DNA of 64,000 nucleotides from Cordylochernes scorpioides (Eukaryota; Arthropoda; Arachnida; Pseudoscorpiones; Chernetidae): contig CP092876.1 in assembly GCA_030710605.1 (NCBI GenBank), positions 89,013,988 through 89,077,987 on the forward strand, given 5' to 3'. How positions within the stretch are numbered: position 1 is the stretch's first letter; each line of letters starts with the position of its first letter. The notes under the pieces were generated by a model. That model did not search any database. It saw only the letters and a list, made by a program, of their open reading frames with translations, and had not been told where the DNA came from. The position numbers were made by a program, and so were the translations under genes. Positions 554 to 59,510 of the stretch are shown here, in pieces.

Positions 554-716
554 GTGTTGGTGATTCTGGTATTTACCATCACTCTCTGCGGCGCCATCTC
601 CCTCCAGAAGCGCAGCAGACAGAGGCTATGTGGCACTATTCTTGCTGATGTTGTTGACTTGATTTGCATAAATGGCCACAGGGAGCCAGAAAAAAGAGCT
701 CAACCCTAGTTTCCAG
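554..716 (+). pseudogene. Insulin-like peptide copy 1, leader and B-chain exon (nonsense mutation)
   Basis: The exon opens after acceptor TGTTGCAG and ends at donor CCAG|GTGAGT. In frame it reads a hydrophobic leader VLVILVFTITLCGAIS, a basic stretch LQKRSRQR, then the B chain LCGTILADVVDLIC with the insulin-type C-x11-C spacing, a tail INGHREPE, and a KR processing site. Known of the family: the B chain pairs by disulfides with an A chain and the secreted hormone acts on receptor kinases or GPCRs. After KRAQP there is a TAG at 707-709 where copies 2 and 3 have TTG. If translated, the product would stop before the A chain, so this copy looks inactivated by a single base. An assembly error or polymorphism is possible. 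The start codon must come from an upstream exon not identified here. Confidence 0.8.
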
Positions 717-2221: not shown

Positions 2222-2394
2222 ATAACCCTAATTTGCGTGTTCCAGACTCTCTCGCCGCGTCAGACCCAGAAATGTTCCTGGACAGTAAGAGAGCGAACAG
2301 TGTGATACAGGCCAAACGACTCATTGTTGAAGAATGCTGTCACAAAGGCTGCGACTATTATCACATTCGACACTACTACTGCAAGCCTTTCTAG
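2222..2394 (+). pseudogene. Insulin-like peptide copy 1, C-peptide and A-chain exon
   Basis: The exon completes Asp across the phase-1 junction and reads DNPNLRVPDSLAASDPEMF, an internal KR, then AKR and the A chain LIVEECCHKGCDYYHIRHYYC followed by KPF and TAG. The A chain has the insulin hallmark CC-x3-C, but nine residues precede the last Cys instead of the usual eight. Its first residue is Leu, where copies 2 and 3 keep the family Gly. The exon is open, but the TAG in the upstream exon would prevent its translation, so I call the gene a pseudogene. AATAAA follows the stop at 2401-2406. Confidence 0.8.
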
Positions 2395-28879: not shown

Positions 28880-29055
28880 CTATTCAGGCTTGCAGTAGTA
28901 GACTCTGATGTGGGTATAGCTGCAGCCGTCGCGACAGCATTCTTCAACAATGCCCCGTTTAGGCGCTGACATCATAATGTTTGCTCTCTTGTTGTCTAGG
29001 AACATTGCTGATTCTGATGCGGCGAGAGAGTCTGGAACACGCACAACAGGGTTAT
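28880..29055 (-). CDS. Insulin-like peptide copy 2, C-peptide and A-chain exon
   Basis: After acceptor ATTCTAG the exon completes Asp and reads DNPVVRVPDSLAASESAMF, an internal KR, then APKR and the A chain GIVEECCRDGCSYTHIRVYYC, KPE and TAG. GIVEECC is the classical A-chain start. CC-x3-C is intact, and nine residues separate the third and fourth Cys where insulins normally have eight. The two dibasic sites would release the A chain and split the C peptide. It pairs with the B exon at 43643-43802 in the same orientation and phase, and no stop interrupts either exon. This is the only copy with both chains open. Function is inferred from the fold signature; which receptor it would use is unknown. 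Confidence 0.85.
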
Positions 29056-29282
29056 CTAGAATCGAATTAGAATACATAGTGAAATGGAACACAAAGCTAG
29101 TTATAATCTATATATATAAAAATGAATGTATGTGTGTGTGTGTGTGACAATTTTTTTTTTTTTACAATTAAAAAATATTTATTGTCATCTTAGACAATAT
29201 TACATTTCAAAGGCAATGAGAGAGAAAGAAGAAAAGAATATATACATGAAAAATGAAATATAATACATGTATGATACATATT

Positions 29283-32200
29283 TTACAAGGGGGGTGATAG
29301 AAGAAAACCTCGACGCTGGAGGGTCCTGGACCAGGCGATGAGCGGGTTCTCCACCGCTTCTCCGAGCCCAACCTGGACAAAGTAGCGGTAGATTCGCAAC
29401 TTTGCCGACGCCAGGATGGAAATGGCGTCGTCCTCAAGGCCGGACCCGCCGAAGATCCAAGCCTGCAGGTCAGGGGGCCGCTCTATGATGTTGATGGCCT
29501 CTCTAATGAGGGGCCTGATGGAGGGACAGCACCAGTAACGGTGGCTGAGGGAGCGGTCGATGGACCCGCAGGCAGGACAGGAGGGGCCGACAGAGGCAGG
29601 ATGGGCCGGATGGGGCAAGGCGTGGAGGGCCAACTTGAGGGCCGCGTCGGCCTCGTGGCCCGAGTAGGCGCAGCGCCGCAGTGAGGCCCAGTCGATCCTT
29701 GATGGTGGATTGATGGTGGGCGTCCATCTCGCCAGGAATCTGGAGATGGGCGTGGCGGCGAGGCGCGGACGATCCAGGGCCCGTCGGGCCGAGCGGGTCG
29801 TGAGGCCGTTGAGGAACGGCATAGCCGTCCCACGCAGCACCACGGCCGCAGCAAGGGAACTGGATGAAGGCGTGGACTCCGCCCCGAAGCCCACGGCGTT
29901 CTTGGAAGTCAGCCTCCGACAGAAGGCGCCCAGGGCCGCGGCGTCAGCCAGGGCCGAGCGCGTAGGGCGGGCGATGAGGTGTTCCTCCTCGATGAGGTCC
30001 CGGACTCGGGCTCCGCTCCAGCGTGCGGGGGCAAAGCGGTCGGGAGGGCGGAGGAACCGGCAGCCGCCGATGATGGGGAGGTCTAGCAGCTGAGCCGTGG
30101 GGACCGCCCGGTGGTTGAGGCCCAGGATGTTGGAGGCCTCCTCCCAGAGCTTCAGCAGCCGTAGACGGCGTGCCGTCCGGTGGAGGGTGGATCCAGGCCT
30201 CACTGCTTTCTACCAGCCAGCTGAAAGCATTTCTGCCTCCGCGTAGCGCGACCTGCACCCCCTTGAGGCAGGCGAGCTGGAGCTGGGTCGCGAGGTCGTG
30301 GAGGCCGAGGCCTCCGATGGTGACCGGCCTCGCCATGACGTTGGCGGGAAGCCACGCCGTGTGGTCTGGCCCCCAGACGAACCTCGCCAGTCGGGCCTGC
30401 AGCTTGGCGATGGTCGGGGGTGATGGGAGGTATCCATGCAGGTGGTGCTGGATCGTGGACCCTACCAGCGTGTTCGCCGCTCTTGCTCGTCCGACGAGGG
30501 AGAGGCCGCGGGTGAAGGGCGTCCATCTGCGGCACGCAGTCTCCAGGAGGGCCAGGAGATGCTGCTCCCGGTAGGCGACGGTGCTCCTGGGGGCGATGTC
30601 GAGCCCGAGGAAACTGATGGAGGTGGTCGACCAGGAGGCGCAGAGAGGGGAGTCGCCGCGGTTGCGCCAGGCGCCGCACCAGAGGCCAGAGCTCTTCCGG
30701 AGGTTCACGCCAACCCCGGAGGCCTGCTTGTACTCCTCGAAGACGGTCGCCACCCGTTCGAAGTCTCCGTCGCGATGGAATAGGAGGACGATGTCGACGG
30801 CGTAGGCGATGACATTGCCCACGCCGAGGGTCAACTCCAGGCGATGTAGCAGCGGCCCCGTGGCGATGCTGAAGAGTGCGGCACTCACGGCGCAACCCTG
30901 TCTTAGGCCGTTGAGGAGGGGGAAGGCGGCGGTGTAGAATCCTCCGGCCCGGATGGTGGCGTTCCCCCCGGCGTAGAGGATGTTAATCCAGGCCCTGAAG
31001 GCCGGCGGGAGGCGGAGGGACGTCAGCAGGGACTCCAGGAAGCCGCGGTCTAGTGAGTCAAAGGCGGACTCCAGGTCTACGCCCATGACGGCCAGCGGTG
31101 AGCCTAGGGCGGTGGCCTCATCGACGGCGTCCGTCACCATGGCGATGTTCCATGACGGGGACCTCCCGGGGACGGCGTAGTTCTGGCATTCCGGCACAAG
31201 GGTCCGCAGGTGGGGCTTGAGGCGCCGGTGAAGGATGGCGGCCAGGACCCTGTAGTCGGCCGAGGGCAGTACGATGGGCCTGTAGCCATCAAGGCCGCGA
31301 CCTCCGCGGGCCTTGGGCACGAGGCAGATGGAGCTGCGCCGCGTCGACGGAGGCAGGGCACCGCGGAGCCGTGATGCCGCGAACACCCGGGCCAGAGCTT
31401 CCGCGAAGAAGTCCTCGCTGAAGGCGACGAGAAGATCGCACGGCAAGCCATCCCAGCCGGGGGCCTTTCCGCGAGGGAGGTGCTCGATAGCGTTGGCGAT
31501 CTCGCTGGCGCTGATGTCCGGCCGGTGGAGCGGGTCCTCCTCACTCAGTTCGCGGGTGGTGGTGGGCGCGCTGCTGGCGATGAAGGCAGCTCCCGCAGCT
31601 GGATCGCTGGTGGGACGGGCGAAGCGGGGCTGGAAGGTCGCGAACGCCCTCCGCCGAAGCTCGGGGCCCTCGATGATGTTATCCTGCTCGTCCCTGATGA
31701 CGCTGACCGGGCGTCGGAGGCGGATGGCGCGTGCTAGGTCCGGCAGCGAAGGGTAGTCGGCCCGGATGGAGGAGGCCTCGAGCTGCGCCGCGATGTAACG
31801 TCTCGCCCTGTAGACGTAGCTGTCGCTGGCAGCGTGGCGCGGGTCGTGCAGGGATCTGGGCTCCGCCAGCAGCCCCGCCTTGATGGAGGTCCACCTATCC
31901 CAGAAGGTCCCGTCGTCGTCATCGTGCGCTGTGTCTTCCTCCAACTCCCGGATGTAGCCAGCCAGATGTTCGAGAGCAAGGCCCGAGCGGAGCATCGCGG
32001 CCAAGCGAGGCTGGGTGGGGGAGGAGACGGCGGTGGGGGGCGGGCCCACCTGGAGCAGCACGAGGCGGTGGTCCGAGAGGTGGTAGTGGCTGGTCGCGTA
32101 GATGGACACGCGATCCAGGACTCCAGCAGGAACGAGAATCCGGTCCAGGCGGTTGGATTAGACTTGGTCGCCGTGCATGGCGACTCTGGTAGGCAGGTGG

Positions 32201-32728
32201 GCGGCGTCGAACTGGGTGGCCACGTCGACCAGCGCGGCCAGGTCCAGAAGAGCGGCGAGGGCATCCGATGATGATGATGATGAGGGGCCCCGATCCCTGA
32301 TGTTAAAGTCGCCGATGATCCAGCAGGCCCCCTCCTCTTCCTGTGCCGCTGTCGCCGCCAGGAGCTCCAGTTGTCGGTTTCTCTCCCGGGTTCATGCGCC
32401 AGATTAACGGCGATGGCCGTCATCTCCTCGCCGTGGACATCTATTGTTGCCAAGGCGATGTGGCCCGGCCACAGGATACGCTGTTGTAGCACGGCTACGC
32501 CTGGTCCGAAGACGCAGGCGAGTCCGGATCCCGAGATGGCTACGGGATGGGCCAACACAACAGCGCCGTAGCCGAGGCAGAGGTCTTGGCCGCTGCCCAG
32601 ATGAAATGCGTTTGTCTCTTGGACAAACGCGATGTCCACGTGATGTTGCCTGAGTAAATGACAAAGGGCAAGGCTCCTCTCGAAGTGGCGAGCCCTCGCG
32701 CGTTGATGGTGGCGACGCGGTAACTCAT
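29283..32728 (-). pseudogene. LINE ORF2: endonuclease, reverse transcriptase, zinc finger (broken)
   Basis: It starts MSYRVATINARGLATSR, the usual APE-type endonuclease opening. It then gives IAFVQETNAF, IGDFNIRD, SNRLDRIL and LSDHRLV, so the endonuclease catalytic motifs survive. The RT shows GKAPGWDGLP, DLESAFDSL (motif A) and LRQGCAVSAALF (motif B). Motif C reads YAVD (complement of 30793-30804) where an active RT has YADD. The C terminus holds CPACGSIDRSLSHRYWC, a CCHC finger, and ends RGFLLSPPL. Damage: frameshifts near 32700, 32370 and 30190 and a TAA at complement 32158-32160. Its product would nick target DNA and prime cDNA synthesis; this copy cannot. Confidence 0.85.
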
Positions 32729-34377
32729 TGGGGCCGTCCTTCACGCAGCACCTTCCTGGTCTTCTGGAGGGTTTTTCGGATGGTGGAGTTGGAGTCTGGG
32801 CACAAGGCCTTGATGGTTTCGTGCAATTTTTCGAGGGCCGTGAACTGTTCCTTTGTTAGCGTGGGCGCTCGCCTCTTCATGGTGGTCTCAGAGGTGAGGA
32901 GCTTCTGAGCCTCATCGCAGTTCAGGTCGGGCAGCTTGTCCCAGTCGATGGAGGGGTTGGGGGACTTGCCGAGGTGCTCCAGCAGCTGTTCGAGTGCGGC
33001 CTTTCCCCGGGCAGGCGTGGCGGGTGGTGAGGACAGCTTCTCCACCGACATCTCGTGGTCGAGCGGAGGGATGCGAGGCTCGGGGGGCCGCAGGGCAGCC
33101 AGGGGAGCAGGGTGGGCAGCAGGGGCGGGGTGGGTGACATCCATCTGTTCGGCAGGCTGGTGTGCCGAGGGGATCGCCTGAGCCTCGGTTGAAGTCTTCG
33201 CCGGTTGGACAGGAGACGCCGGAGTTGCGGGCGCCGGTGCCGGCTTCCTTGGTTGCTGAGGAGGGGGAGGAGGAGGAGGGGGAGGCCTTGCGTCGGTGGG
33301 AGACGCTGCTTGCCTGGGGTTGCCGTTCCCTTGCCTGGCGAGCGCTGGACAGTTGACTCTGCGGTGGCCCTGTTTACCACATTTGGAACACTTGATTCCA
33401 AAGGAGAGGAAGGCCGACAGGGTGTCTCCCTTGGAGTGGATGGTCAGTCTGGTGGGCAGCGTCTCCAGCCTTACGCCCTCGCGGAGCAGGATGAACGCCT
33501 CCCGGCGACCGTCGGTGAAGGTGAACTCCCCCATTTTGACCAGGATGGGGGCGATGGAGGTGATCCTCCCAAATTGGCCCAGGGTGGTCGAGATGGTGCT
33601 GTCCTCCACAAAGCCGGGCAGGTTGGCCACGACTATGCACTCCGCCCTCTTGCGGAAGGGGAAGACCTTGAGGGTCGTTCCCTCGATTTCCAGGCCGTTC
33701 GCGACCAGACGGCTCACGAGGTCCTTGTTCTCGAGGCCCACGACGTAGTGGCCGTTCATTCGATTGAATTGGGTAATGTCCTTTGGCCCCCCGAGTAGCG
33801 CGCTCATTGCCTTGAGGTATGAGTAGTCCGGGATTTCTGGGCACAGCTCCACGAAGACGTAGTTCTCGTGGTTGGTAGTGGCCTGCCTCGTCCTGGCGTC
33901 GGCGATGTTGGCGCGTGTCGCCTTGATCTCCTTAGGCGGCACTGCTCTCGGCCCTGTTGGCCGCATTGGCTGCTGGGAGCTGGGCTTTTCAGCATGCTTG
34001 CCAGGCTGCTTAGTGGCGTGCTCCGATGTTGAAGTGCGGCGCCTTTTCTTGCCCTTCACAACGGTGTAGCCTTCGTTGTCTTCCACCTCCGCCATCTCGC
34101 TGTCGGCCCAGTTGAGCGAGGCTGGAATGTCGCTGGTAGCAGCAGCAGTCGTTGGCGCCGTGACGTCACGCGAGGCGGCCGGATTTGCATACTCCTTGCC
34201 AGCAGGTAAATTTGCATGTTTAGAATTTACTTGATTTTCATCAGAAGAATTTTTCTGAAAAGCAATTTTCGCTGATATTTCAGCACTGGTTTTAGGCTTC
34301 AAGCTGAGCCTTTCAGGCTCACGAGCAGCTCGTTCAGGGCTTTCAGCCGGTATCACTTTCGACACACCTTTCGGCAT
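32725..34377 (-). CDS. LINE ORF1: gag-like nucleic-acid-binding protein
   Basis: The frame of 550 codons starts MPKGVSKVIPAESPERA. The first third is charged and Ser/Thr/Ala-rich. A middle domain follows (roughly residues 160-330). Then one CCHC knuckle, CSKCGKQGHRRVNC (C-x2-C-x4-H-x4-C), near residues 331-344, and a Pro-rich stretch including a run of nine Pro. The C terminus ends LREGRPQ and its stop abuts the start of ORF2. Known of the family: ORF1 proteins coat the element RNA. R1-type ORF1 proteins often have three knuckles; only one is evident. The frame is intact, unlike ORF2. Confidence 0.8.
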   Translation of the reverse strand: MPKGVSKVIPAESPERAAREPERLSLKPKTSAEISAKIAFQKNSSDENQVNSKHANLPAGKEYANPAASRDVTAPTTAAATSDIPASLNWADSEMAEVEDNEGYTVVKGKKRRRTSTSEHATKQPGKHAEKPSSQQPMRPTGPRAVPPKEIKATRANIADARTRQATTNHENYVFVELCPEIPDYSYLKAMSALLGGPKDITQFNRMNGHYVVGLENKDLVSRLVANGLEIEGTTLKVFPFRKRAECIVVANLPGFVEDSTISTTLGQFGRITSIAPILVKMGEFTFTDGRREAFILLREGVRLETLPTRLTIHSKGDTLSAFLSFGIKCSKCGKQGHRRVNCPALARQGNGNPRQAASPTDARPPPPPPPPPQQPRKPAPAPATPASPVQPAKTSTEAQAIPSAHQPAEQMDVTHPAPAAHPAPLAALRPPEPRIPPLDHEMSVEKLSSPPATPARGKAALEQLLEHLGKSPNPSIDWDKLPDLNCDEAQKLLTSETTMKRRAPTLTKEQFTALEKLHETIKALCPDSNSTIRKTLQKTRKVLREGRPQ

Positions 34378-34420
34378 GAAAGACGGCGGAGCTAAAAAAA
34401 AAAGCGTGGCCGCTCGATAG

Positions 34421-35497
34421 TGGTGTGTGTGTGTGTGTGTCCTATATGCCTGGCCAAACCACTCATTAGAACGCCATGAAAATTTGGGAAGTTATTTAGC
34501 CTAGTACTGGGAAGGTTTCTAGCAAATAAAATTTTTGAAATAACATTTCGCCTAAAAATAATCAAGATAAATATTCTAATTTATCTGTTATAATTCAACA
34601 ATCTGCTCTAAATATTATCATGATGATACGATGATTTTGTAATGTAGAAAATTAGGAAAGACAAAATTCAGGATGACAAGGCAATTTATTTGAGACAAGA
34701 ATAATGATACAATTCCAAGGCAAGATACTATTCCTTTAACTTCCAATTACCGAGGGAACCAATTAATATTGATTTATTCAACTTATCGAGTATTTTTCAA
34801 GGGACCGGGAAAAAATGTTCACTTTATCGAAAGATTCGTTAGACAAACCTTTACTCGGGTAAAATTTAATATAAATATGGAATTTATAAATTTAATATCC
34901 ATTTATCGTTAAATTTCTCAACAAATAAATTTACTGACAATGTGTTTTTTTAAATATTATCAAATATTATATCTACAGACCTCTATTTTAAATAACATCA
35001 AATATTATATCTACAGACAGGTCTTTAGATATAACATTTGATGCTATTTAAAAGAAACCTATCGCAAGTAAATATATTTGTACTAAAAATAAGTATAGAA
35101 TGTTTTATAAGAATAGAAGGATTTGAAGGATGAATGTTTCTTTTATACATAAAATAAATTTGGATCATCTTTACTGTGAGAAGGAAATATTGATTACCCT
35201 CACAGTGGTTATGCCAATTTTATCTACTAGACCGCTCCTTAGAGCTCTAGTACTGTATTGGATATTCTACAACAAAGGGTGAAATCTAATAATGGTATTC
35301 AAATCAACTATGAACATAAGTTTTAGGACAGTAGAATTACATATGAATATTTGCATCAAGCAATGCTCTTCTGAAAAAAAATATGGACAAGGCCATTTGG
35401 TAAAATCTACTTATATAATTGCCTTATTCTGTCTGAAGCTCACGGATAGAATGCGCGCCCATTGGCTGCCGGCGAACACGTGTCCTCCCTGCCCCCC
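34421..35497. other. Intron of ILP copy 2, repeat-derived and conserved parts
   Basis: 34421-34440 is the (GT)n flank of the LINE. About 34670-34860 is the RC of a repeat found again at 54725-54990. About 34980-35400 matches the intron of copy 1. No gene. Confidence 0.5.
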
Positions 35498-36749: not shown

Positions 36750-37032
36750 TGTTAGCCAATCTTCTTTCTGGCTGGTTCTCTTTGCTCACTCTTCAACCTA
36801 GAGGTATAGTCAGCGCCGAGGTCTTGTCCTAAAATGAAGCGGGCCTTACGAGCTCTAACTACTGTGAAATCACCAGTCTCACAAAGCTCGACTTAACACA
36901 ACTTAACACAACTTTATTTTCAAACACACTATATACAATCAATTCACACACGTGACCAGGCACTCTTGGTCAAATATAATATAAACATATATACACAGAG
37001 TTACATTAAAATAATAATAACAAATTCCAATA
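36750..37032 (-). repeat. BEL 3' LTR
   Basis: Direct repeat of 41504-41777, with ends TGTTAGCC and CCAATA on the + strand. Confidence 0.85.
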
Positions 37033-37057
37033 TTCCTCCCCGAGTTGATGGGTCACA

Positions 37058-38783
37058 TCAATTTTCATCATTAGCTAACACGGCAGCCAGTTCTTTTAAT
37101 TGATTTTGAGCCAGATAGAAACGTGAACGCAACTGTCGTGCAGCTCCTACAAAACTTGTTCCTAGATCACTATATAGCCGAGTGCAATGCTCTCTTCGCG
37201 CTACACATCGCTTAAAGGCCGACATGAAGGTGGGTGTAGAGGCATCTGTGACCAATTCAGGATGTTTGGCTCGGGTCACATTGCACACAAATAGACAGAT
37301 GTAGCCCTTTTTCCGTCTTTCAACCTCTACCCCTGGACAATCGAAGGTTCACAGGTCCAGCATAATCCACACCACTGATTGAAAAGGGTTTACCCGGTGT
37401 TAATCTCTCCTTGGGTAAATTACTCATTAGCTGGCCTTGAGTGACGCGATTGTCGACAACATGTCACGCACTATCGAATGCATCTCTTCACCTGGTCTTT
37501 TGCTCTCAGCATCTAATACTTCTGTCTCAATGTGGACAGCATCAGGTGCACACTTCCGTGCAAAGTCCGCATATGAACCGCTTGAATAATCATCTGAGCT
37601 ACCTTTCCTGATGAAGGCAATAGCGCAGGATGTTTTTGTTCATATGTCATAGCTGGAGCCCATTTCAATTTACCGCCGAATCCAAGGATTCCTTGATCGT
37701 CGAGGATCGGTGTTAAACCATAAATCTTGCTCGTGCGCTTCACTGATCCCAAAGTGGTCAAACTTCTCATTGCCTCCCTGAAATGCTGGCACTGAATTGC
37801 TTGAAGTATTCTCCGATGAGCATTTCTCAGTTCAGCTGTTGTTAAGTGCGACTGATATCGCTCCGCGCTGTAGCGGCAGTTATGACGAAAACGCAATATC
37901 CAGGCCACCTTTCGGATATATCTATTAAAGGTTGAGCTCATCTCTCCAATAGCCACCAAGAAAGGTGTTTCACTGAGGGCAGGAACACTCTGGAGCTCCG
38001 TTTGACTTTAGTTCCCAAACACAGGAGGCATTCTAGGCCCTTCTGTTGATTCCGCTGATAACCAGGTAGGTCCTGTCCACCAGATGGAAGACTGCTTCAG
38101 CTCGGTCCCCAGAATTCCTCGCGAGGCAATATCCGCTGGATTAACTCCTGTGGGAACACAGCGCCACTCCCTTATTTGTGGACAACTTTGAATCTCCGCG
38201 ACACGATTGCCGATGAAAGTGGGGAGATCTCCAGACATAGCTCTTGACCAACTCTAGACCATGGTAGAATCGGACCATCAGGTATCACTTTCCATTTTGA
38301 TATCCAACTCTTCCATTATATATTTCACTAGTCTGGTCAGCAGAAGAGCTGCGCACAATTCTAAGCGTGGAATTGACATCTTCCGCAGGGGAGCCAACTT
38401 AGTCTTTGATGCCAACAGTTTTACACTAACTCTATCATCAGTGGGAATTCGTATGTAAACAGCTTCCGCATAGGCGTCTTCGGAGTCATCACCGAATCCA
38501 TGCAATTTTATTCCCTGGGTATTCCTTCCGAGACCCAACCATCGGGGTATTCTCAATCTTCCTATGAAATTCAATCCATTGGATCATCCCAATGTAATCC
38601 CGTTATCCACAACCTTTGAACCATTAATTTTCCTGTTACAAGGACAGGTGCCAACCATCTTAAGGGATCTTCTAACTTGGCGATGAAGGAAAGCATTTCG
38701 CTCGTGGTAGTCGCCGATGTCTTTTCCAACGACTGAACGTCATATAAGAAACAGTCTTCACCTTGGATCCATCCCAAACCCAA
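37058..38783 (-). pseudogene. BEL pol remnant: RNase H and integrase
   Basis: In order on the minus strand: LGLGWIQGEDCFLYDVQSL and LSFIAKLEDPLRWLAPV (post-RT connection typical of BEL/Pao), PRWLGLGRN with HGFGDDSEDAYAEAVYIR and MSIPRLELCAALLLTRL (RNase H), VPTGVNPADIASRG with SSIWWTGPTWL, then a region with TTAELRNAHRRILQAIQ and LHGSVHLMLSTLRQKY (zinc-binding integrase start), and part of the core with YSDLGTSFVGA. Several frameshifts separate these pieces, and the integrase end is lost against the 3' LTR. Confidence 0.8.
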
Positions 38784-38788
38784 TGTCC

Positions 38789-39520
38789 TTATAACATTGG
38801 ACTGTTCAAATGCAATCCTTTGTGTGCAATGCTCTCTCGCATGTTGCCCAAAATCGTCAGATCAATTTCTTTAGAATCTGTGGTTTCTAGGGCTTTGAAG
38901 GTGATTGAGGCTGGAGAGGGTTCGTTTCTTCCAGTGTCTTCCTCTTCCAAGTCTATGCTGGATTCTTCTTTCTTCATACAAAGAACTTTGGAAGATATGG
39001 CTTTAGGGCTCTTTGTTTGAGCTCTTACCTCTACATCGCTTGAAGCCCCCACTCCAGAACCCTCCACATCAAGAGGCTCTGAAGGTTGAGAATCTTCAAC
39101 TGCAGACTTTTCGTCAGAATCTTCCGCTGCAATTTCTGGAACCTCTTGAGAACCCCGATCTTTACCTCTTGAAGAATCAGGATCTGATGCTGAGGCATCG
39201 TCTGCAGGCTTAGTGGTATCGTCTGAAAGCTCAGAGGTATCGTCTGAAGGCCCAGAGGAATCGTCTGCAGGCCCAGAGCAGTCATAAGACTCTGAAATCC
39301 TCTTTAGATATCTCAAACCACTCAATATAATAGTCCTATAATCCTCCGGATTCGCAATCCTTTCCAGTTTAGCACTTCTACCAGACTTTTCTGGAGTCTT
39401 GTCTCCTAAATTAAGATTTTCCGCTGGAGTAGGCACTTGCCCCTTTGGAGAACTGGCCGGAGTATCTAATATTGGAATTACCACAGCTCCAGAAACAGTT
39501 TTCTTCGATACAAGTTGCAT
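38789..39520 (-). CDS. Acidic, low-complexity ORF inside the BEL element
   Basis: A frame of 243 codons, rich in Asp, Glu and Ser, with repeated DDSSGPSDDTSELSDD-like units near its middle and a PEDYRTIILSGLRYLKRI stretch before them. It lies exactly where the BEL RT palm should be, between the RT fingers at 39726 and the connection domain at 38783. I do not recognise a family. It could be a captured host segment or internal gag-like sequence brought in by rearrangement. It has no clear start of its own, so it may be one domain of a larger former protein. Confidence 0.45.
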   Translation of the reverse strand: MQLVSKKTVSGAVVIPILDTPASSPKGQVPTPAENLNLGDKTPEKSGRSAKLERIANPEDYRTIILSGLRYLKRISESYDCSGPADDSSGPSDDTSELSDDTTKPADDASASDPDSSRGKDRGSQEVPEIAAEDSDEKSAVEDSQPSEPLDVEGSGVGASSDVEVRAQTKSPKAISSKVLCMKKEESSIDLEEEDTGRNEPSPASITFKALETTDSKEIDLTILGNMRESIAHKGLHLNSPML

Positions 39521-39725
39521 TTCATTGTTTGGAAGATATTGCCAATTGAACCTTTTTCTATTGGTTCTCTATTCACATAGGTGATCTGGATGGTACAACC
39601 CTGTTTAGAAAGCGTTTTACTTTCTCCAACCTTTGCATCATCATTCAACTATTTCCTTGTTCCGGATTTTGAGGCACGGGGCACTTAACTAAAATCGTCT
39701 ACAACGATTTTCCGCCCAAAAACCA

Positions 39726-41111
39726 TCAGTTGTCCATCTTTTTCTTCCAAAGAAATCTGAGGTAGTCCCAATCATTCTTCTTAATGACAATCAACCGGAA
39801 ATATCTTTTCAGGTCGGCCAAAACTCCGAACTTATTCTCCCGAAGTTTTATCCTTATCTCAGGGATTCCTCTCACTAGACTGGGTCTCCTCCTCAAATAT
39901 CGTTTCAACGAGAGTCCGTTGCGTCCTCGACAGGAAGCGTCGTCAAATACTGGCCGTATAGGCGTCGCTCTGGACCCACACTCAAATACAGGGCGATCGG
40001 GAAAATAGCATCCCTTTACTTTAAATTCCGCATCTCCAATTTGTCTTGCTTCCACCATTTTCCTCGATGCTGGAACTCTGACAACTCTTTCCTCAATATC
40101 ATCAATGGACTCAGCCTCGCCATCTGAAATCTCCACTTGATCATCGCCCTCAGCTACCGCTTTAGAATTGCTCACCGATTCATAACCTTTAATTGCAGTC
40201 TCAGAATCCCCTACTCCATTGTCCTTGGTTTCAGCTTCTGAGTCTTTCCCATTCTCTAAATCTGCGTCTTGCCTTTCCGCCACCTTTGAATCGGTACCTT
40301 GTTCTACATCTAGCTTTTCTGCTACCTTTGAATCAGTGCCTTGTTCTGCATAGAGCAGCTTCACTTCTTCAGTGTTCTTTGAATCCATTCCTTGGTCCAC
40401 ATCCAGCCCTTTCTCTTCATCTGCTTCAACGGATTCTTTCTTAACTTCAGCCCTATGACTTTCGTCAACTTCTACAACAGACTTCTTCTTGACTTGAGCC
40501 TTTTTACTTTCTTCATCAAAACACCTTTTCTCAACTTGAGCCCTTTCACTTTCTTCAACGGCAATCTGCGTGGATGTCTCTTCTACCATTTGATCGGATG
40601 ATACCACAATCCCAGCATCTTCCTTAGTAGAAGCTGGATCAACTCCCCTCACCAAGGTAACTCCTACAACCCTTGGCTTCTTACTCATCCCGACTTCTAA
40701 ACTGATTCCATCGCAGATCCTCAAATCCAATTTGGGCAGTCGGCAAACTCCTGTTCCAGGCAGCGAGCCCCTTTTCGAATTAGCACCATGGAGGGCTTCC
40801 GTATCCTTCATCAGGAAGCTGAGGAAGTGATTTATCTTAATTTGAAGACCAATCCACTTCAGATCATACTGGCTCACTGTGTCCTTCTCCTCCTCTAGTT
40901 CCTTGTAATCAATTTCCTCATCTTCTAGCATCAACTTCCAGATCAACTCATCTTCTTCCCGAAGATCTGCTATATTATTTTCGATGAATGTATAGCTCAT
41001 TCTCATCACATCCTCAGAAGGAGTTTCTTCATCCAACTCCGCTTCTGTCCTTTTGATCAACTTGTAAATAATCGTTCTTTGAACGGCTTTACTTCTTAAT
41101 GCCCGCTTCAT
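39726..41111 (-). CDS. BEL chimeric ORF: acidic repeat region joined to RT fingers
   Basis: The 461-codon frame starts MKRALRSKAVQRTIIYKLIK and begins with a helical, charged gag-like region (about 1-110). A long acidic region follows (about 165-345) with imperfect repeats such as EQGTDSKVAEKLDV. At about 355-461 it becomes a BEL/Pao RT: CYFPDRPVF, TPIRPVFDDAS, NGLSLKRYL and FGVLADLKRYFRLIVIKKND match the fingers and the motif A neighbourhood. It stops before the YxDD motif. Known BEL elements have gag and protease before RT; here the CCHC knuckle and protease are not seen, so the acidic stretch has replaced them or lies in their place. Confidence 0.6.
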   Translation of the reverse strand: MKRALRSKAVQRTIIYKLIKRTEAELDEETPSEDVMRMSYTFIENNIADLREEDELIWKLMLEDEEIDYKELEEEKDTVSQYDLKWIGLQIKINHFLSFLMKDTEALHGANSKRGSLPGTGVCRLPKLDLRICDGISLEVGMSKKPRVVGVTLVRGVDPASTKEDAGIVVSSDQMVEETSTQIAVEESERAQVEKRCFDEESKKAQVKKKSVVEVDESHRAEVKKESVEADEEKGLDVDQGMDSKNTEEVKLLYAEQGTDSKVAEKLDVEQGTDSKVAERQDADLENGKDSEAETKDNGVGDSETAIKGYESVSNSKAVAEGDDQVEISDGEAESIDDIEERVVRVPASRKMVEARQIGDAEFKVKGCYFPDRPVFECGSRATPIRPVFDDASCRGRNGLSLKRYLRRRPSLVRGIPEIRIKLRENKFGVLADLKRYFRLIVIKKNDWDYLRFLWKKKMDN

Positions 41112-41480
41112 TCTCTAGCCTTGCTTTTGTTCTTAACTTAACCTTTTATTGCTTAACGCACTATACCTCGGCCTTATCTTTTTAATCCAATTTGCAAAAC
41201 TTTCCTAAAACCCTATTTGCATAACTTCTTCTTTTGTTATGATCTTGCCTAAATTTGCATAGGCCTTCTTTTCTTGATTATCTTAGTATTGACAAATTGA
41301 TTTCCGAATTTTAAAACTTTAACTTCTAATCAAGAGTGAGTTCTTCTTAATCTTTATCTTCTTCAATTCCTTTAACCTCTTTAGGCTTCTTCAACTTATT
41401 AACCTCTTTAGGCTTCTTCAACTTCTTAACCTCTTTAACTCTAACCTTAGCCTAGATCCGGTAACTTAATCTTGTAGCTT

Positions 41481-41500
41481 GAATCCGGCTCGAGGGACCA
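41481..41500 (-). other. BEL primer-binding site, tRNA-Tyr type
   Basis: Three bases from the 5' LTR the minus strand reads TGGTCCCTCGAGCCGGATTC. The complement matches a tRNA-Tyr 3' end (GATTCCGGCTCGAAGGACCA) with two differences. Confidence 0.65.
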
Positions 41501-41503
41501 AAA

Positions 41504-41777
41504 TGTTAGCCAATCTTCTTTCTGGCTGGTTCTCTTTGCTCACTCTTCAACCTAGAGGTATAGTCAGCGCCGAGGTCTTGTCCTAAAATGAAGCGGGCCT
41601 TACGAGCTCTAACTACTGTGAAATCACCAGTCTCACAAAGCTCGACTTAACACAACTTTATTTTCAAACACACTATAATACAATCAATTCACACACGTGA
41701 CCAGGCACTCTTGGTCAAATATAATATAAACATATATACACAGAGTTACATTAAAATAATAATAACAAACTCCAACA
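41504..41777 (-). repeat. BEL 5' LTR
   Basis: TGTTAGCC to CCAACA on the + strand. It lacks a 10-bp duplication (CTTAACACAA) present in the other LTR. Confidence 0.85.
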
Positions 41778-42523
41778 TAAGTCTTAGTATCAACTGATAC
41801 AATACGCAGAATGCTTCACAAGAAGGGCCTCTATGCTCGACGACCCATAATTTGTTTGCCATTGACATCACCTCAAACGAGAGCAAGGAAACTTTGGTGC
41901 AGACAACATGTCGCCTGGAATCCAGATGAATGGAGGCGTGTAATGTTCAGTGATGAGTCCAGATTCTCTCTAAACAGCGATTCTCGTCGTGTATTTGTCT
42001 GGAGAGAGGTAGGAACCAGAAATAATCCCCGAAATATGGTTGAAAGGGATCCCTACAGAAGCCAAGGTTTTATGGTCTGGGCTGGAATCTTCTTGGGCGG
42101 TCGCACAGCACTCCATATTTTTCGGCAAGGAACCCTGACTGGACAGAGATATCGGGACGAGATCTTGGCAGCATATGTGATTCCGCAAGCATTGGAAATG
42201 GGAGAAAACTTTCTTCTAATGGATGATAATGCCCGTCCACATAGGGCTGGTGTGGTCGACACTTTTCTCCAAAACCATGCAATTGCTCGGATGAATTGGC
42301 CAGCTCTATCCCCAGACCTAATTCCAATTGAGCATGTATGGGACAACCTAGGACGGCGGATCTCACCCTCCAACCCCCTCCTAGAAACACTCATGAGCTA
42401 GAAACAGCCTTAACACAAGAGTGGGCGTTGATTCCACAGGAGCTGATAAACTCCCTAATTCTTAGTATGGGTCACCAATGTAGAGCCTGTCTATCAGTTA
42501 AAGGCGATTGCACCCCATATTAA
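41778..42523 (+). pseudogene. Tc1 transposase, catalytic half
   Basis: Resuming after the BEL insert, the frame reads STDTIRRMLHKKGLYARRP, then MFSDESRFSL (first Asp), LLMDDNARPHRA (second Asp) and SPDLIPIEHVWDNL (Glu), the DDE triad of Tc1 elements with the typical SPDLNPIEHVWD block. A frameshift near 42390 moves the last 45 or so residues (HELETALTQEWALIPQE...) to another frame, ending at 42523. Apart from this and the insertion it is well kept, so the Tc1 copy was fairly young when BEL landed in it. Confidence 0.85.
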
Positions 42524-43642: not shown

Positions 43643-43802
43643 CTGGAAACAAGGGTTGAGCTCTTTTGGTCGGCTCGTAGACGCCATTTGGGCAAACCAA
43701 TAAAACAGGTTCAGGGAGATAATGGCCACATAGCTTCTGTCTGCGCTTCTGGAGGGAGATGGCGCCGCAGAGAGTGATGGTAAATACCAGAATTACCAAC
43801 AC
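43643..43802 (-). CDS. Insulin-like peptide copy 2, leader and B-chain exon
   Basis: After acceptor TGTTGGCAG the exon reads VLVILVFTITLCGAIS (hydrophobic leader), LQKRRQK, then the B chain LCGHYLPEPVLLVC with insulin spacing C-x11-C, PNGVYEPT, a KR cleavage site and AQPLFPG, ending CCAG|GTGAGT in phase 1. The leader differs from copy 1 by one silent base in 60, yet 11 of the 19 residues after LCG are different. No stop occurs. It joins in phase to the A exon at 28880-29055. The start Met must lie on an upstream exon: no ATG in frame is found before the acceptor. A gypsy LTR only 260 bases upstream may have removed or displaced that exon. Confidence 0.85.
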
Positions 43803-44063
43803 CTGCCAACACACGAAGAACCAGATTTCAATAGTACCAGAAACCCAAATACTTATTCTTGAAGTAATTGAAACCAAGAAGAACCCTTTTCTTTGAAAAC
43901 CTTATATAGGCATTTTTGGATCATTTTTATAAAAAAAAACATCTGAACGGTTTTTATAAGATAAAATGAATTCGTAGTTCTATATAATGAAGGGTTTCAA
44001 ATCAATATTTAAAAAAAGGCCACCTAAAGACGTCCAGAAGAATAACAGCCACGATGATGGCGA
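43803..44063 (-). other. 5' flank of ILP copy 2
   Basis: From 43803 to about 43990 it matches the flank of copy 1. The stretch nearest the gypsy LTR (about 44025-44063) can be read as AIIVAVILLDVF followed by TTTAG|GTGGCC, a hydrophobic run before a possible donor. It is absent from copy 1. It might be a scrap of a first exon or chance. Confidence 0.3.
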
Positions 44064-44328
44064 TGGAGAGAGGAACAACAACAGACGGTACGGAGACTTC
44101 AAGCACTGACCTTTATTGTCTTTTATTACTAAACGTTACATTTAAATGGGAAAACAAACAACAGGTATTTACATTATGTTACCTCCCAGGGCCAATATAA
44201 AAGTGTGAGTGTAAGTTTTCCCCTGGAAACAGGATCACAGCAGCCGGCGACTCCCACATCAGTTTCAGAAGCAAAACAGGCGAAAGCGCCATCTATTGAC
44301 CGAGGTTGCAAGTGTTCTTCTCGTAACA
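44064..44328 (-). repeat. Gypsy 3' LTR
   Basis: Direct repeat of 47004-47268. On the minus strand it starts TGTTACGAGAAG and ends CTCTCCA. Confidence 0.8.
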
Positions 44329-44339
44329 CTACCTCCCCC

Positions 44340-45609
44340 TTAAACCAGATCGTCTAGATCAGGTCCAATTAGTCCTTGGTAACAAGCCAGTCTTCCCAAA
44401 TGCACCACCTTGGCCTTTGATTTAGAACTTCGCTGTATACGGTAGATCAAATCATTGTTCCTTTTGATGATCTTGCAGGGCCCTTCCCAAATTGGCATCA
44501 ACTTTGGTGAAATTCCTATTTTTTCTTTTTGGATGAAACAGCCATACTAATTCATTTTGTCTAAATCCATCGTGGTTCGCCCTTAGGTCATAGCGAGTCT
44601 TCATCCAGTGGCTTGCCGTGCGAATCTTGGCCCTAACCAATTCGTGAGTCTCCAACAGAATACTCCTCAGAAGGTTTACATAATCTGTTACCTCTGCCGG
44701 CGGCTCCTCAGGACTGCCGAACTCCAAATCACATGGAAGTCGTAATTCTCTTCCAAACATTATCTTGGCCGGTGTCTGCCCAGTTGTCTCGTGAATGGCG
44801 GCTCGGTACGCCATAAGAAATGGCGGCAGTCTTACGTCCCAATCCCTTTAGTGCTGCTCCACAACTTTAGACAAATGTTCCTCTTTCGTTTTATTGAACC
44901 TTTCAACCATTCAAACAGATTGGGGGTGAAGGGGAGTAGTTCTTGTCTTCCGAATTCCCAAAAGCTTACACAATTCATGGAACACCCCTGCCTCGAAGTT
45001 TCGTCCTTGATCCGAATGCAATTCCAGTGGCACTCCAAACCGACAAATCAGGTTGTCCATTAGAACTTTCGCAACCGTCGTAGCCTCCTGATTCGGGATT
45101 GCGTAGGCTTCAGGCCACTTAGTGAAATAATCCATGGCGACCAAAATATATCTGTTGCCGCCTTCTGTAACTGGGAATGGACCGGCCACATCGATGGCGA
45201 TTCTCTCAAATGGTGCGCCCATATTGTATTCCCTCATCACTCCTCTGCATTTAGTTTTGGGTCCTTTGCTTGCGGCACACCTGTCGCATTCTTTGCACCA
45301 CCTTTCCACCTCCTCGTGATAGTATACCCGAAAAAATCTCTCCCTAACTTTCTTTAGCATTTTATTAATGCCAAAATGAGCCTCCGAGACTCCATCGTGT
45401 ATTTCCCATAGGACATTGGGAACCTGGACCTTAGGGACTACTAGCTGCATGGTTTTACTCTTTCCATCGGCACTTTCCCAAATTCTTTTTAACAGTCCGT
45501 TATCTATACTGAGGGAGTCCCACTGTGACCACAAGGCCTTCAATTCGGGGCTCTTGTCGGATATCATTTCCCATCTTGGTCTTTCATTCCCCCTTTCTTT
45601 CCATTCCAA
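44340..45609 (-). pseudogene. Gypsy integrase
   Basis: A zinc-binding HHCC region (HDGVSEAHFG ... WCKECDRC) is followed by the catalytic core: AIDVAGPFP (first Asp), SDQGRNFE (second Asp) and MVERFNKTKEEH (Glu), all three present. MAYRAAIHETTGQTPAKIMF and FGRELRLP then lead to the C-terminal domain. Two nonsense codons interrupt the frame between 44814 and 44911, and a frameshift near 44490 shifts the last domain (WEGPCKIIKR ... VVHLGRL), which ends at complement 44340-44342 just before the PPT. Otherwise well kept, so inactivation looks fairly recent. Confidence 0.8.
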
Positions 45610-45689
45610 GATTGGGCCGATGTTGGGATCCCGTCACTGGAAAGTCCTACAACTTTCAGCGGTCCAGTCATCACTCGGCACCATAGTTG

Positions 45690-46906
45690 TCCTCCTTGAG
45701 GTTACTTCATGTTCATCAATTCTCTTACAATGCTGGCAGTCGCCACAAGGGCTTCTGGAGAGAGCATCTGCATTGCTAAGTTTTCTTCCAGGCCGGTCCA
45801 TAACGTTGGCAGAATTTAGTTTCCCTGGCTGTCTCTGGTCGGGCAGCCTGAGGGTGCACTGCCTCTTTAGATGACCATGTCGTCCACAGTGGAAACAGGG
45901 CCCAGCCGATCATCTGCCAGGCCTGGCGGTCTCTTCTAGCCATTCTGGTCTTTCCAGTATATCATTAATGGCGTCCGATTCCCCACTGCCTCCAGTGGTG
46001 CTTTGCTCCGCAATTAATTCTGCACCACGGACCCGTGGGTACCCCGATTCGATCACTCGGTAGGCTGTATCCACCTCCAGGGCGCGAACCAGCGCCTCTC
46101 TTGATTTATCGAAAGAAGCAAGTCGTAACACTCTTTGGACTTCTACGTCTCGAATTCCATCGATAAACATCTGGGCAGCCCATTGGTCAAGGAAATCAAT
46201 GGGAGCACCAGGGTAGGCCAGAAGACAGAGCTTCTTGACATCAGCTTCAAACCCCTGCAAACTTTCCCAGAATTTTTGTCTTCTTAGCTTAAGTTGAGTT
46301 TGTTATACTTGCCTTAGATGTTGTTCTCCATATCTCAACTCAAGTTCTCCCATCAACATCGAATAACTCTCTTGGTCTGCACGCAGAACCGCCTGAAACA
46401 GATCTAAGGCCGGTCCCGAAGTGCCACAATCAAAATTGTCACTTTTTCGGTTTCTCCCTAGCCATTGTTGAGAGTCACTGCTTCGAATTGTCGCCTAAAA
46501 CCTTCGAGGGAAGTTTTGTCAGTCAAAGGTAGGCGGAGGTATGTTGCGGCCTGTGGGTGAGATCACAGCACCCTCTAGACTCTTTAGCGCCAGCTCGATC
46601 TCCAGCCTCTTGCACTCTGTCGGACTTCACTAATATTATTATCTAAGGTTGCCCGGACCCCTCCCCCGATCTCACTCTGGAACCTAACCTCCAAATTTGT
46701 CACTTTCTGGTGCAACTCCGCCCTCTCCTGCTGTCGAAGAAGTCTTTCTTCTTCTCTCTCTTTTACCCGAAGAAGCTTTTCTCCCTCTTTCTCTCTTCTT
46801 TAAGAACTCTTATTTTTTCTTTAAGAAGCTTCTCTTCAACTTTCTTCTCCTGAAGCCTTTGAATCATCTGGGTGAGTGTGGCCAGCAAGTTCTGCTCCGA
46901 AGCCAT
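45690..46906 (-). pseudogene. Gypsy gag joined to an RNase H tail by deletion
   Basis: The gag start MASEQNLLATLTQMIQ (complement of 46906) leads into a Lys/Glu-rich coiled coil. Farther on come a capsid-like region (45910-46260: LLAYPGAPIDFLDQWAAQMF, a gag alpha-helical fold) and the CCHC knuckle CFHCGRHGHLKRQC at 45856-45897. About 20 codons later the frame reads RPGRKLSNADALSRSPCGDC, which is the end of a gypsy RNase H. Hence protease, RT and most of RNase H are gone. Frameshifts also separate the gag parts. Confidence 0.75.
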
Positions 46907-47003
46907 TTTTTTTACCTCTAGTCTCGATGAGCACTCGTCAGCAACCGAAGAAATCTCAAAAATAGCCTCCTGGTGAACTCCACGAGAAAATATCCTCGAG
47001 GAA

Positions 47004-47268
47004 TGGAGTGAAGAACAACAGCAGGCGGCACGGAGACTTCAAACACTGACTTTTATTGTCTTTTATTACTAAACGTTACATTTAAATTGAATAACAAACT
47101 ACAGGTATTTACATTATGTTACCTCCCAGGGCCAATATAAAAGTGTAAGTGTAAGTTTTCCCCTGGAAACAGGACCACAGCAGCTGGCGACTCCCACATC
47201 AGTTTCAGAAGCAAAACAGGCGAAAGCGCCATCTATTGGACGAGGTTGCAAGTGTTCTTCTCGTAACA
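47004..47268 (-). repeat. Gypsy 5' LTR
   Basis: Direct repeat of 44064-44328 with scattered substitutions. On the minus strand it starts TGTTACGAGAAG. Confidence 0.8.
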
Positions 47269-47804
47269 ATATATGATTTAATTTCCAAAGCTTTATCTCC
47301 TTCATATGTTTTGACAAGCCGCTAAGACATTAATCTGATGTAACAGCTGTTCTGGTCGTCTGGAATCGATGGTAAGAACTGGTATTTAAGATGGCACAGC
47401 CTTCTAGCGTGTCAATAGACATGCTTATTTCATGGTTATTAAGTTCTCTCCATTGTGTTACATGTTCATCTTTGTTTAAATTTAAAAATTCTGTTCATTG
47501 TGGTAGTTTTTTTATTATCTGTTGAATATAGTTTCAAAATTTATATATTCTTATCATTATTAATTTTTGTAATTACTGTTTTAATATTAGTTTGTGATTT
47601 GCAATCAGCAATTTAATTATTTTTCTTTTATCAGAAGGTGGCAATTCACCTTCAAGTTATATTTCTGGCATTGCCATTAATGTTTAGCATCACACAAAAA
47701 GATGCTAAAAATACAAATTTGTTTCAATTATCTCAATGTGTAGTTGTTTAGGAATTAATATCAGCCATTGATGGCTTTGAAAGTGGGATAACAGTGCAAC
47801 TTCT
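47269..47804. other. Spacer, no gene seen
   Basis: AT-rich sequence between the gypsy LTR and the 107-bp array. No open frame or repeat with a clear match. Confidence 0.4.
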
Positions 47805-48456
47805 AATCAATGTGGTACCGGGTGAATTCAGGTCAGTGTGAAAGATAGAAATTCTTTTCCTATTCCAATTCTCTTGAAATTTATTGTGTTATTGCTAAAG
47901 TAGAATTGTTCATTGGAGTATATCGGCCATTCTATGTTTATTTTTGTGAGATAATTTGTTTTATTCATTGTATTAGCATGGTATAAGTTTATTGTGTAAG
48001 CGCTAAAGTAGTATTGTTCATTGGAATAGATGGCCATTCTTTGTTCATTTTGCAAGATAATTTGTTTTATTCATTGTGTATTAGTATGGTATATGTTTAT
48101 TGTGTGAGTGCGAAAGTAGAATTGTACATTGGAATAGATTGGCTGTTCTTTGTTCATTTTGTAAGCTAAGTTGTTTTATTCGTGGTAGTAGCGTTGTATA
48201 AATTTATTGTGTGAGCGATAAAGTAGCATTGTGTTCTTTGGAATAGATTGGCCAGTCTATGTTCATTCTATAGACTATATTTTTATTCATTGTATAGGCC
48301 TGTTTTAGGTTTACTGTGTAAGCTAGAAAGTAGTATTGTTTTCATTGTAATAAAATGGCCAGTCTATGTTTATCTTGTAAGCTGTTTTATCCATTGTATT
48401 AGCTTGTTGTATATTTATAGTGTGAGTGCTAAAGTAGTATTGTGTTCATTTGAACA
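47805..48456 (+). repeat. Minisatellite of about 107 bp, six units
   Basis: The landmark ATTGTTCATTGG or its variants occurs at about 47905, 48013, 48121, 48228, 48334 and 48439, a spacing of 105-108. Units also share TTTATTGTGTAAGCGCTAAAG. The last unit runs straight into the remaining end of the ILP copy 3 B exon. A single worn unit lies at about 90-230. Confidence 0.8.
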
Positions 48457-48481
48457 AAAAGAGCTCTACCCTTGTTTCCAG
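48457..48481 (+). pseudogene. Insulin-like peptide copy 3, stump of the B-chain exon
   Basis: Only the final KRALPLFP codons and the donor CCAG|GTGAGT remain. Everything upstream, including the B chain and leader, is replaced by the 107-bp minisatellite, and an in-frame TGA lies at 48451. The intron that follows matches copies 1 and 2 closely, proving the identity of this fragment. Confidence 0.75.
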
Positions 48482-50484
48482 GTGAGTACACCGAGTCCTG
48501 GAAGAAATTGACCATTTGTCTCTGCAACAAGGTTTTGTCTTTTAGAACGAAAAGTTCTACTTTATATAAGCCACGCTAACAAGGGCCAAACAGCCCGAAA
48601 CGCATTCGTGGTTACTTAACTTGATTTATCAAGAAAATTGGCATGCCAAATTTCAGGAAACAGGCTAAATGAGCGTTTAGTTGATTTCTGTTCCACTAGA
48701 TGGCGCTCTGCCATCTATAAATGCATGTGACCCAGGTCAGGATATGCCTTTTTGATTTTAATATAAATATTTATACTATATTTTAATATATATTCCATGG
48801 TAGTGGTATATATACCAAGTAAACGTGGCCATGATAATCATGGTGTGTAGTTAGCGTCTGCTCTTACTGTAAGTACACCATATGTCCACACTTTTAGAGA
48901 GAAATGCGACTTCCGCACTTACAAGTGTTCCAGAGCCTCGTTTGGTTTATTTATTATCTGACCTCTATATAGATGAACAATTCTCTCGCGAATTCTGATA
49001 TCCATGATTCTGTTGAAATTCTCTGAAATATATATTTTATTTAAATAGATATCTTCAATTAATATCAATATAAATTAAAATAATACAAAAGTTTACTGGA
49101 GTTGAGTTTCTTTTCTTTCAAATAAGAAATGATATCGTTTGATGTTAAATTTCATCATCTCTGACTTGATAAATTTCATATCTACATACTTGATATGAAT
49201 CTCCTCGATATAAATTATAATAATACAGCAGCTTTCAGAAGATGAGTTTCTTTTAACAAAAATATCAAATGAACTCTACTCTATCTTTATTTATCCTTAT
49301 CAATCTTATTTTTTAAATATATATTTATTTTATATTTAATATTATATAACCTTATATTGATAAAAATATAATAAAGTAGTTTCATTATCTCGATTCCTCT
49401 CTCTACTATCTGAAAAAATCGGAAAAGCTTTAACTAATCAATAGCTTTGTACTTTTGAGTAGATAAGGGAAGGTATCCCTAAAGATAATCGCTATTTGAA
49501 TGAAATTAATAGCGCATTAAATGTCTCCTCATTTTTAATTCAATATAAATGTGCTAATTTTGAATCTATTCTACATATGAATATATTCTCTATATGTGTG
49601 TTGTGGTTCTGCATCGATTTCCACCTCCAGAGTGAGAATCTATTATACCCCACCCTCACGATTCATCTCCACATCAGGAAAAACGCCATTATTAATTCGA
49701 TCGAAATTCTTCTAGCATCGCGAATTCTTTATCAGCTGAAATATACAATGTTTGCTATATAGCTACATCAACTAATTTTTTATTTTGTTTCCGACGTTAC
49801 AATAACTCGCTGTTACTCTCTTCTAAGGATTCATTCCATTGTTTCATGTATAAGAGAAACATTCAAGCTTCAATGCTTCTATTTATTATATATAGATGGC
49901 CCCTTATCAGCTTATAATTAATTTTGCCTCGTCTCTATTGTTTACCGAACAACATTGCTCGAGGCAAATATTTATATATAAATACACCTGCCCTAAAAGC
50001 TTATGTCCATAGTTTATTTGAATACCATTTCTTAGATTCCACCCTTCAGTGTAGAATATATAACCAGAATTATTCAATACAGCATTAGAGTTCCAAGGAG
50101 CGGTCTAGTAGATAAAATTGGCGTAACACTGGGAAGGTTCACCAATATTTTTTCATCACAGCAAAGATAGTAAAACTTTGTATTATGTGTAAAAGAAACA
50201 TTCATGCTTTGAATCTGCCTTTTCTTATTCAACATTTCATATTTATTTTTAGTACAAATATATTTATTGCCAATGAGTTTTTTCAAATATTACCAATTAT
50301 TATTTATACACACCTGTCTGTGGATATTATATTTGATGATATTTAAAATAAATACATTGCCATTAAATGTATATATACACGAATATTAATGATAGATGAC
50401 AATTAAATTTATAAATTATATATTTATATTAGAATATTTTCTGCTAGGTGTTCCATTTCACTATGTATTCTAATTCAATTCTAG
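48482..50484 (+). other. Intron of ILP copy 3
   Basis: GTGAGT to ATTCTAG, collinear with the copy 1 intron, but with about 0.5 kb extra at 49285-49775 that copy 1 lacks. No gene. Confidence 0.6.
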
Positions 50485-50666
50485 ATAACCCTGTTGTGCG
50501 TGTTCCAGACTCTCTCGCCGCATCAGACCCAGAAATGTTCCTGGACAACAAAAGAGCGAACAATGTGATGTCAGCGCACAAACGAGGCATTGTTGAAGAT
50601 TGCTGTCGCAACGGCTGCGACTATAACCACATTTTAGTCAACTACTGCCAAATTCTATTGGAATAA
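50485..50666 (+). pseudogene. Insulin-like peptide copy 3, C-peptide and A-chain exon
   Basis: It reads DNPVVRVPDSLAASDPEMF, an internal KR, then AHKR and the A chain GIVEDCCRNGCDYNHILVNYC. All four A-chain Cys are kept, again with nine residues before the last. The end differs from the other copies: after Cys it reads QILLE and stops. This is because about 280 bases, counting from the last codons through the 3' flank as seen in copy 1, are deleted here. The exon is open but has no B exon, so I treat it as part of a pseudogene unless an unrelated upstream exon supplies a start. Confidence 0.75.
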
Positions 50667-51119
50667 ATATAAACGAATCGTTCATAATATAGCCACATCA
50701 ACCAATTATTTATTTAGTTCCCGACGTTTCAATGTCTCACTGCCTCTCTCCTCAGGGGATTATATTTTTTCCAAACCAACTTCCAACCAACAAATTATCT
50801 TCAGAAACTTTCATTTTTGATTAATCGAGAATATTGGCGAAATATTTACCGTGCTTTCTTTCATTGAATTTTTTGAAAATCCAACAAGGTACGCTTAAAG
50901 TGTTGTTAGGCCTCGTCAGCGTGGTATAGTCTGTACTTCAACATCAGAATCAACAAATAATTTTAATAACTGATATAAAGTATATGAATTGGTTTGAATA
51001 TCTCCTGGACAAAAATAAACAACACCACATATTTCTGTAAATAAGTTTATTTTCATTTTATTATCGTAGTCTCAAGCTTTCGAGCATCTCTGTCATTCTT
51101 GTATAGGATCAATCACATA
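50667..51119. other. Downstream flank of ILP copy 3
   Basis: Matches about 2680-3129 behind copy 1. No gene. Confidence 0.5.
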
Positions 51120-53450: not shown

Positions 53451-53455
53451 ATGCG

Positions 53456-59500: not shown

Positions 59501-59510
59501 GCAAATACAA

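Follow-up and report, generated by a model that had tools for sequence, protein, structure and literature searches.

The B chain of one copy of a duplicated insulin-like (ILP) gene differs from that of a second copy in the same 64-kb window (the whole stretch of DNA analysed) about three times as much as the flanking introns do. This excess of B-chain change between the two copies, A and B, is real. As read from the sequences, it would be an unexplained burst in one broken copy (copy A), and toxin-like evolution of the whole family appears unsupported by the four members available for comparison. The preferred explanation, which has about an even chance of being right, is a birth-and-death ILP family in which the burst on the copy A branch, with the insulin core kept, reflects a past shift of function or receptor preference, the stop codon of copy A having arisen later.

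Gene copies and their surroundings

The window contains three copies of the duplicated ILP gene, of which A and C lie on the forward strand and B on the reverse strand. The copies follow a common plan, consisting of leader, B chain, KR, C peptide, KR and A chain, encoded by at least two coding exons. Their parts are located as follows.

554..716, forward strand: exon 2 of copy A, encoding the leader, the B chain and the start of the C peptide, without an in-frame ATG in the exon; recognised by its splice sites (AG acceptor, GTGAGT donor), its translation and its match to copy B when aligned
635..691, forward strand: divergent B-chain segment of copy A (the 19 codons after LCG), unlike copy B at 24/57 bases and 11/19 residues
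707..709, forward strand: in-frame TAG stop of copy A, past the KR cleavage site and ahead of the A chain
2222..2394, forward strand: exon 3 of copy A, encoding the remaining C peptide, KR, A chain and stop; recognised by CC-x3-C-x9-C and AG acceptor
28880..29055, reverse strand: exon 3 of copy B, encoding the remaining C peptide, KR, A chain and stop
43643..43802, reverse strand: exon 2 of copy B, encoding the leader, the B chain (Pro at B12 and B14) and the start of the C peptide
43668..43724, reverse strand: B-chain segment of copy B, the counterpart of 635-691 in copy A by alignment
48454..48481, forward strand: exon 2 remnant of copy C, the final bases only (TKRALPLFP and donor), without leader or B chain
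50485..50645, forward strand: exon 3 remnant of copy C, from alignment to copy A (A 2382/2669 = C 50648/50654)

In both copies A and B, exon 2 is bounded by an AG acceptor and a CCAG/GTGAGT donor and encodes a hydrophobic leader and KR cleavage sites. The initiator Met is not in this exon and must be located in some upstream exon. The joined exons of copy B encode, in order, a leader, QKR, the B chain (LCG...VC), KR, the C peptide, KR and the A chain (GIVEECC...), and score 39.6 bits against the PF00049 (insulin/IGF/relaxin) profile, with a cut-off of 23, in agreement with the insulin identity given to this DNA by an earlier note on it. Copies A and B show six cysteines in insulin spacing (C-x11-C in the B chain, CC-x3-C-x9-C in the A chain). 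In all three copies the last A-chain spacing, C-x9-C, is one residue over the usual insulin length. It was considered as a family-unique feature and dropped, as P0010 (a mosquito protein) and P0015 share it; 12 of the 14 other protein matches with a readable A chain have x8.

No further convincing copy was returned by tblastn of the exons against the 64-kb window. Copies A and C are parts of a large duplicated block (691-12358 and 48456-63998), the pieces of which are mostly 80-90% identical and span more than 11 kb, and copy B is a third copy of the block, inverted and broken by transposons. The left window edge (1-195) resembles, by eye, part of an LTR-type element at 44063-47271 (46580-48007 region), and positions 95-195 match the satellite preceding copy C; copies A and C may therefore share their upstream arrangement. 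The mobile and repeated elements next to the gene copies are given below.

29092..34864 (edges approximate), reverse strand: LINE-type insertion in the copy B intron; recognised by the homology break A 2170/2186 = B 34865/29091 and by RVT_1 (PF00078)
36750..41778, unstranded: LTR-type element in the copy B intron; recognised by self-comparison (95.4%) and LTR alignment
44063..47271, unstranded: LTR-type element immediately upstream, in copy B, of the stretch it shares with copy A; LTR pair 93.7% alike, PF00665
47880..48443, forward strand: satellite-like array of a ~107-base unit in 5.3 copies, adjoining the truncated exon 2 of copy C

The reverse transcriptase ORF of the LINE occupies 29944-32109, and the LINE ends ~36-60 bases ahead of copy B exon 3. 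The two LTRs of the element at 36750..41778 differ mainly by two indels, suggesting a recent insertion, and the element at 44063..47271 contains an ORF with an integrase core domain (44911-45609). Elsewhere in the window, direct repeats of ~3 kb that are 98% alike (12514-15501 and 22199-25185) resemble LTRs of exceptional length, with a TGGCGCC stretch resembling a primer site, noted by eye, after the first repeat and no listed ORF of at least 120 aa between them; 12514-25185 is perhaps a large non-autonomous retroelement. A minisatellite at 55629-56707 (32-base units, 33.7 copies) keeps three forward frames open over 300 codons, but these repetitive hydrophobic ORFs are probably not a gene.

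Divergence between copies A and B

When copies A and B are aligned, the leader and QKR (first 20 codons) differ at one base in 60, silently, and the 19 codons after LCG differ at 24 of 57 bases, with 11 replacements and two silent codons. Both counts had been given by the earlier note and are exact. Copy A carries an extra codon directly after QKR, and codons 21-26 contain one replacement. The flanking introns differ at 31/210 bases upstream and 117/896 downstream, in total 148/1106, and the B-chain segment thus reaches ~3x intron divergence (Fisher p=2.5e-7), in line with the previous observation that the intron is more alike than this part of the exon. Among the 57-base windows of the whole A-B alignment, the B-chain segment ranks highest (24 differences), and the best window lying entirely outside exon 2 contains 16.

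By the NG86 method, the B-chain segment has pN 0.494 and pS 0.196 (21.25 replacements at 43 sites, 2.75 silent changes at 14), giving dN 0.81 and dS 0.23 for this single A-B pair, by counting and not from a codon model. Replacement and silent sites inside the segment do not differ significantly (Fisher p=0.12). The excess of B-chain change rests instead on the comparison with the intron, from which the silent rate of the segment (3/14, rounded) is no different (p=0.42). Compensated frameshifts in copy A were also tried as the origin of the 11 replacements and rejected, as a gapped alignment scored higher (11 vs 9) only at the most lenient gap cost and the ungapped alignment was best at two stricter costs.

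The leader had been described as frozen. Its NG86 values are pN 0 and pS 0.061, and its silent sites (1/16 changed) are not below the intron (p=0.71). Since these silent sites behave like the intron, they do not suggest a leader held more firmly than usual, and the likeness of the two leaders would be due to ordinary constraint on a signal peptide and its cleavage sites.

Despite its many replacements, the B chain of copy A keeps hydrophobic residues at positions 11, 15, 17 and 18 as well as Cys19. When 24 changes were placed at random in the copy B segment 20,000 times, this core, a set picked by the analyst after seeing the data, was kept without a stop in 1.2% of placements, the stop-free share being 45%. 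The number of unchanged residues (8/19 in the copy A segment) is by itself not unusual in random placements (p=0.09). Taken from the sequence, the segment probably belonged to a functional insulin B chain while it was changing, and the stop came afterwards.

In exon 3, dN and dS for KR and the A chain are 0.27 and 0.29 (A-B), 0.28 and 0.27 (A-C), and 0.26 and 0.19 (B-C); for the C peptide, dN is 0.19, 0.12 and 0.09 and dS 0.35, 0.28 and 0.20 in the same pairs. Accordingly, pN in the A chain (0.229, 0.232 and 0.216) is above that in the C peptide (0.167, 0.112 and 0.082) in each of the three. However, between copies A and B the A chain (15/75 bases) does not exceed its local flanks, either the 3' UTR (18/120, p=0.43) or the last 50 intron bases (11/50, p=0.82), which fits relaxed constraint and makes positive selection unnecessary. 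The divergence of the A chain, with dN close to dS, was therefore rejected as independent support for selection, for which it is weak at most, the flanks of exon 3 being equally diverged between A and B.

Family members and the state of the copies

A protein search with copy B (E<=1) returned three closest proteins, all from Cordylochernes scorpioides: LAZ67_14003528, LAZ67_14003527 and LAZ67_14003419 (P0001-P0003), each encoded on a contig of 91,489,810 bases that is presumably one and the same. By these matches the window would come from this pseudoscorpion (family Chernetidae) or one of its close relatives. P0001-P0003 also lead the 17 proteins found by a profile search with all copies (E<=10), the remainder of which are much weaker matches from fish, nematode, mosquito and spider, together with three further insulin-type proteins. 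P0002 is 85% identical to copy B over 48% of the latter. In the database P0001-P0003 are called hypothetical proteins and have no Pfam domain, which may well be why the family would have escaped notice. Their gene models appear to combine exons from adjacent copies with other sequence. P0001 and P0002 have a leader and a B chain of the copy B type, and P0001 and P0003 show the start of exon 3; in P0001, by eye, a piece of exon 3 comes first and is followed by exon 2 of what is apparently the next copy, as expected of a tandem array. A search with residues 18-75 of P0002, aimed at additional members whose models might be longer and mixed, returned P0001 and P0002 only.

The B chain could be compared in four members (A, B, P0001 and P0002), with P0001-P0003 available to the comparison as protein only. 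Over its 19 positions, P0001 and P0002 differ at one and copy B differs from them at three and four, whereas copy A differs from copy B, P0001 and P0002 at 10-11. With P0001 as the third sequence, eight of the 19 positions are unique to A, one to B and two differ three ways (exact p=0.039). On these sequences copy A is the outlier, the B chain being similar in three of the four available members. The earlier proposal of a constant leader and a variable mature part is thus upheld for the B chain of copy A but is not supported for the family by these four members. Copy A nevertheless belongs to it, since its B chain is closest to P0001 and P0002 among the 17 matches (BLOSUM62 scores of 83 for P0001, 79 for P0002 and 72 for copy B; 50 for the next protein).

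The sequences show in each of A, B and C one or more features expected to interfere with the making of a functional prohormone. In copy A this is the TAG, which the earlier note does not mention and which might stem from an error in sequencing or assembly; copy A may then still work. In copy B, positions B12 and B14 (numbered by Cys7 and Cys19) are prolines, where copy A, P0001 and P0002 have A or V. Residues B9-B19 of insulin are helical. The B chains of P0001 and P0002 read A12, A14 and S16, in contrast to P, P and L in copy B. The intron of copy B is 14.6 kb long and holds the LINE and an LTR-type element. The reading frame of copy B is uninterrupted, and it retains its splice signals. Copy B is likely dead, although it may be working despite the insertions. 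Of exon 2, copy C retains the final 28 bases, beside the satellite-like array, and its exon 3 has a deletion of ~286 bases relative to copy A that removes the normal A-chain end, the stop and the 3' UTR, such that the frame stays open until a stop whose last base is 50666.

Explanations and known systems

A sequence of events consistent with these observations would begin with the duplication of ILP prohormone genes, whose copies take up transposons and disappear. On the branch leading to copy A, the B chain would have been remodelled quickly through amino-acid replacement with its core retained. The B chain makes much of insulin's contact with the receptor, and the driver on this branch would most likely be a change of receptor preference or of function. 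Copy A would have acquired its TAG after the B-chain burst. With a single outlier copy known, however, selection is indistinguishable from a one-off event. One such event, also named by the earlier note, is gene conversion: the B-chain segment of copy A may have been imported from a more divergent ILP paralogue by a short gene conversion or recombination, leaving leader and B chain as a mosaic. This is rather unlikely, and the findings point both ways. Third codon positions are raised in the segment (6/19 vs 13% in the intron, 148/1106; p=0.035), in a number of codons two or all three bases are changed and the divergent stretch has sharp edges, all of which fit an import. However, these edges coincide with LCG and the neighbourhood of KR, which is also where selection would set them. 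No donor was found within the window by blastn-short and tblastn, and none of the 17 protein matches is nearer to the B chain of copy A than P0001/P0002. Furthermore, an old functional paralogue would differ mostly at third positions, whereas these make up 6/24 of the differences, a share below one half (p=0.011), which counts against a constrained paralogue. Compared with one third the share is not significantly lower (p=0.26), and the import of an old, unconstrained segment would still agree with it.

The excess in the B chain of copy A would also be produced by toxin- or pheromone-like diversifying selection on the mature chains of the whole family, as originally suggested for this DNA. The higher replacement level of the A chain over the C peptide in all three pairs points the same way, and excerpts of the literature report that some pseudoscorpions make venom (PMC12504284) and that venom insulins of cone snails evolve in this mode (PMC11336141). 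However, the B chains of P0001, P0002 and copy B are alike (1-4/19 differ), the A chains of A and B differ no more than their local flanks and the copies bear lesions, which together make selection of this kind across the family very unlikely. The lesions or likely harmful features in 3/3 window copies would also fit relaxed constraint alone, with dead copies drifting and mutations clustering in the B chain by chance, and the A-chain values (dN 0.27, dS 0.29, A-B) are similar to those expected of it. Drift, however, should not reach three times the intron rate (p=2.5e-7), nor does it account for the B-chain frame and core positions being kept, and its probability is slimmer still. The preferred explanation, a shift of function or receptor preference in a birth-and-death family, can be extended to a chernetid ILP array in which the receptor face of the B chain is adaptively remodelled in at least some members, genes die frequently and the peptides have a role in conflict (with prey, between mates or between mother and offspring). 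Copy A would then be a fossil of this process, an idea that is improbable. More generally, a striking comparison of two copies should be weighed with other members of the family in view and with regard to whether the genes are intact, as the signal here comes from one stop-bearing outlier.

Insulin is usually regarded as a conserved hormone, and the best-known cases of fast change in the mature chains are venom insulins. A large cluster of genes of the insulin type is also known from an arthropod in the case of silk moth bombyxin. The present genes share with other arthropod ILPs (PF00049) the leader, the C-x11-C B chain, the KR-bounded C peptide and the duplicated copies, and the A chain of copy B starts with GIVEECC. 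The A-chain motif CC-x3-C-x9-C is a variant among arthropod ILPs but not unique, and a different A-chain form with extra residues is described for aphids in the excerpted text of PMC10349280. Among papers matching pseudoscorpion and insulin, none has pseudoscorpion insulin genes as its topic by title, and the word 'pseudoscorpion' is absent from the main text of an arthropod survey (PMC7357564). Likewise, the excerpted venom literature (PMC5983263, PMC11336141, PMC8778599) contains no link between pseudoscorpion venom and insulin. One of these excerpts (PMC11336141) describes how selection diversified the insulin precursors of cone snails (con-insulins) once they had been recruited to venom. 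Con-insulins are known to be expressed in the venom gland, whereas the case described here is a single divergent copy with a stop codon. Should intact copies with a B chain of the copy A type exist, pseudoscorpions would offer an arthropod system in which a hormone gene changes its target.
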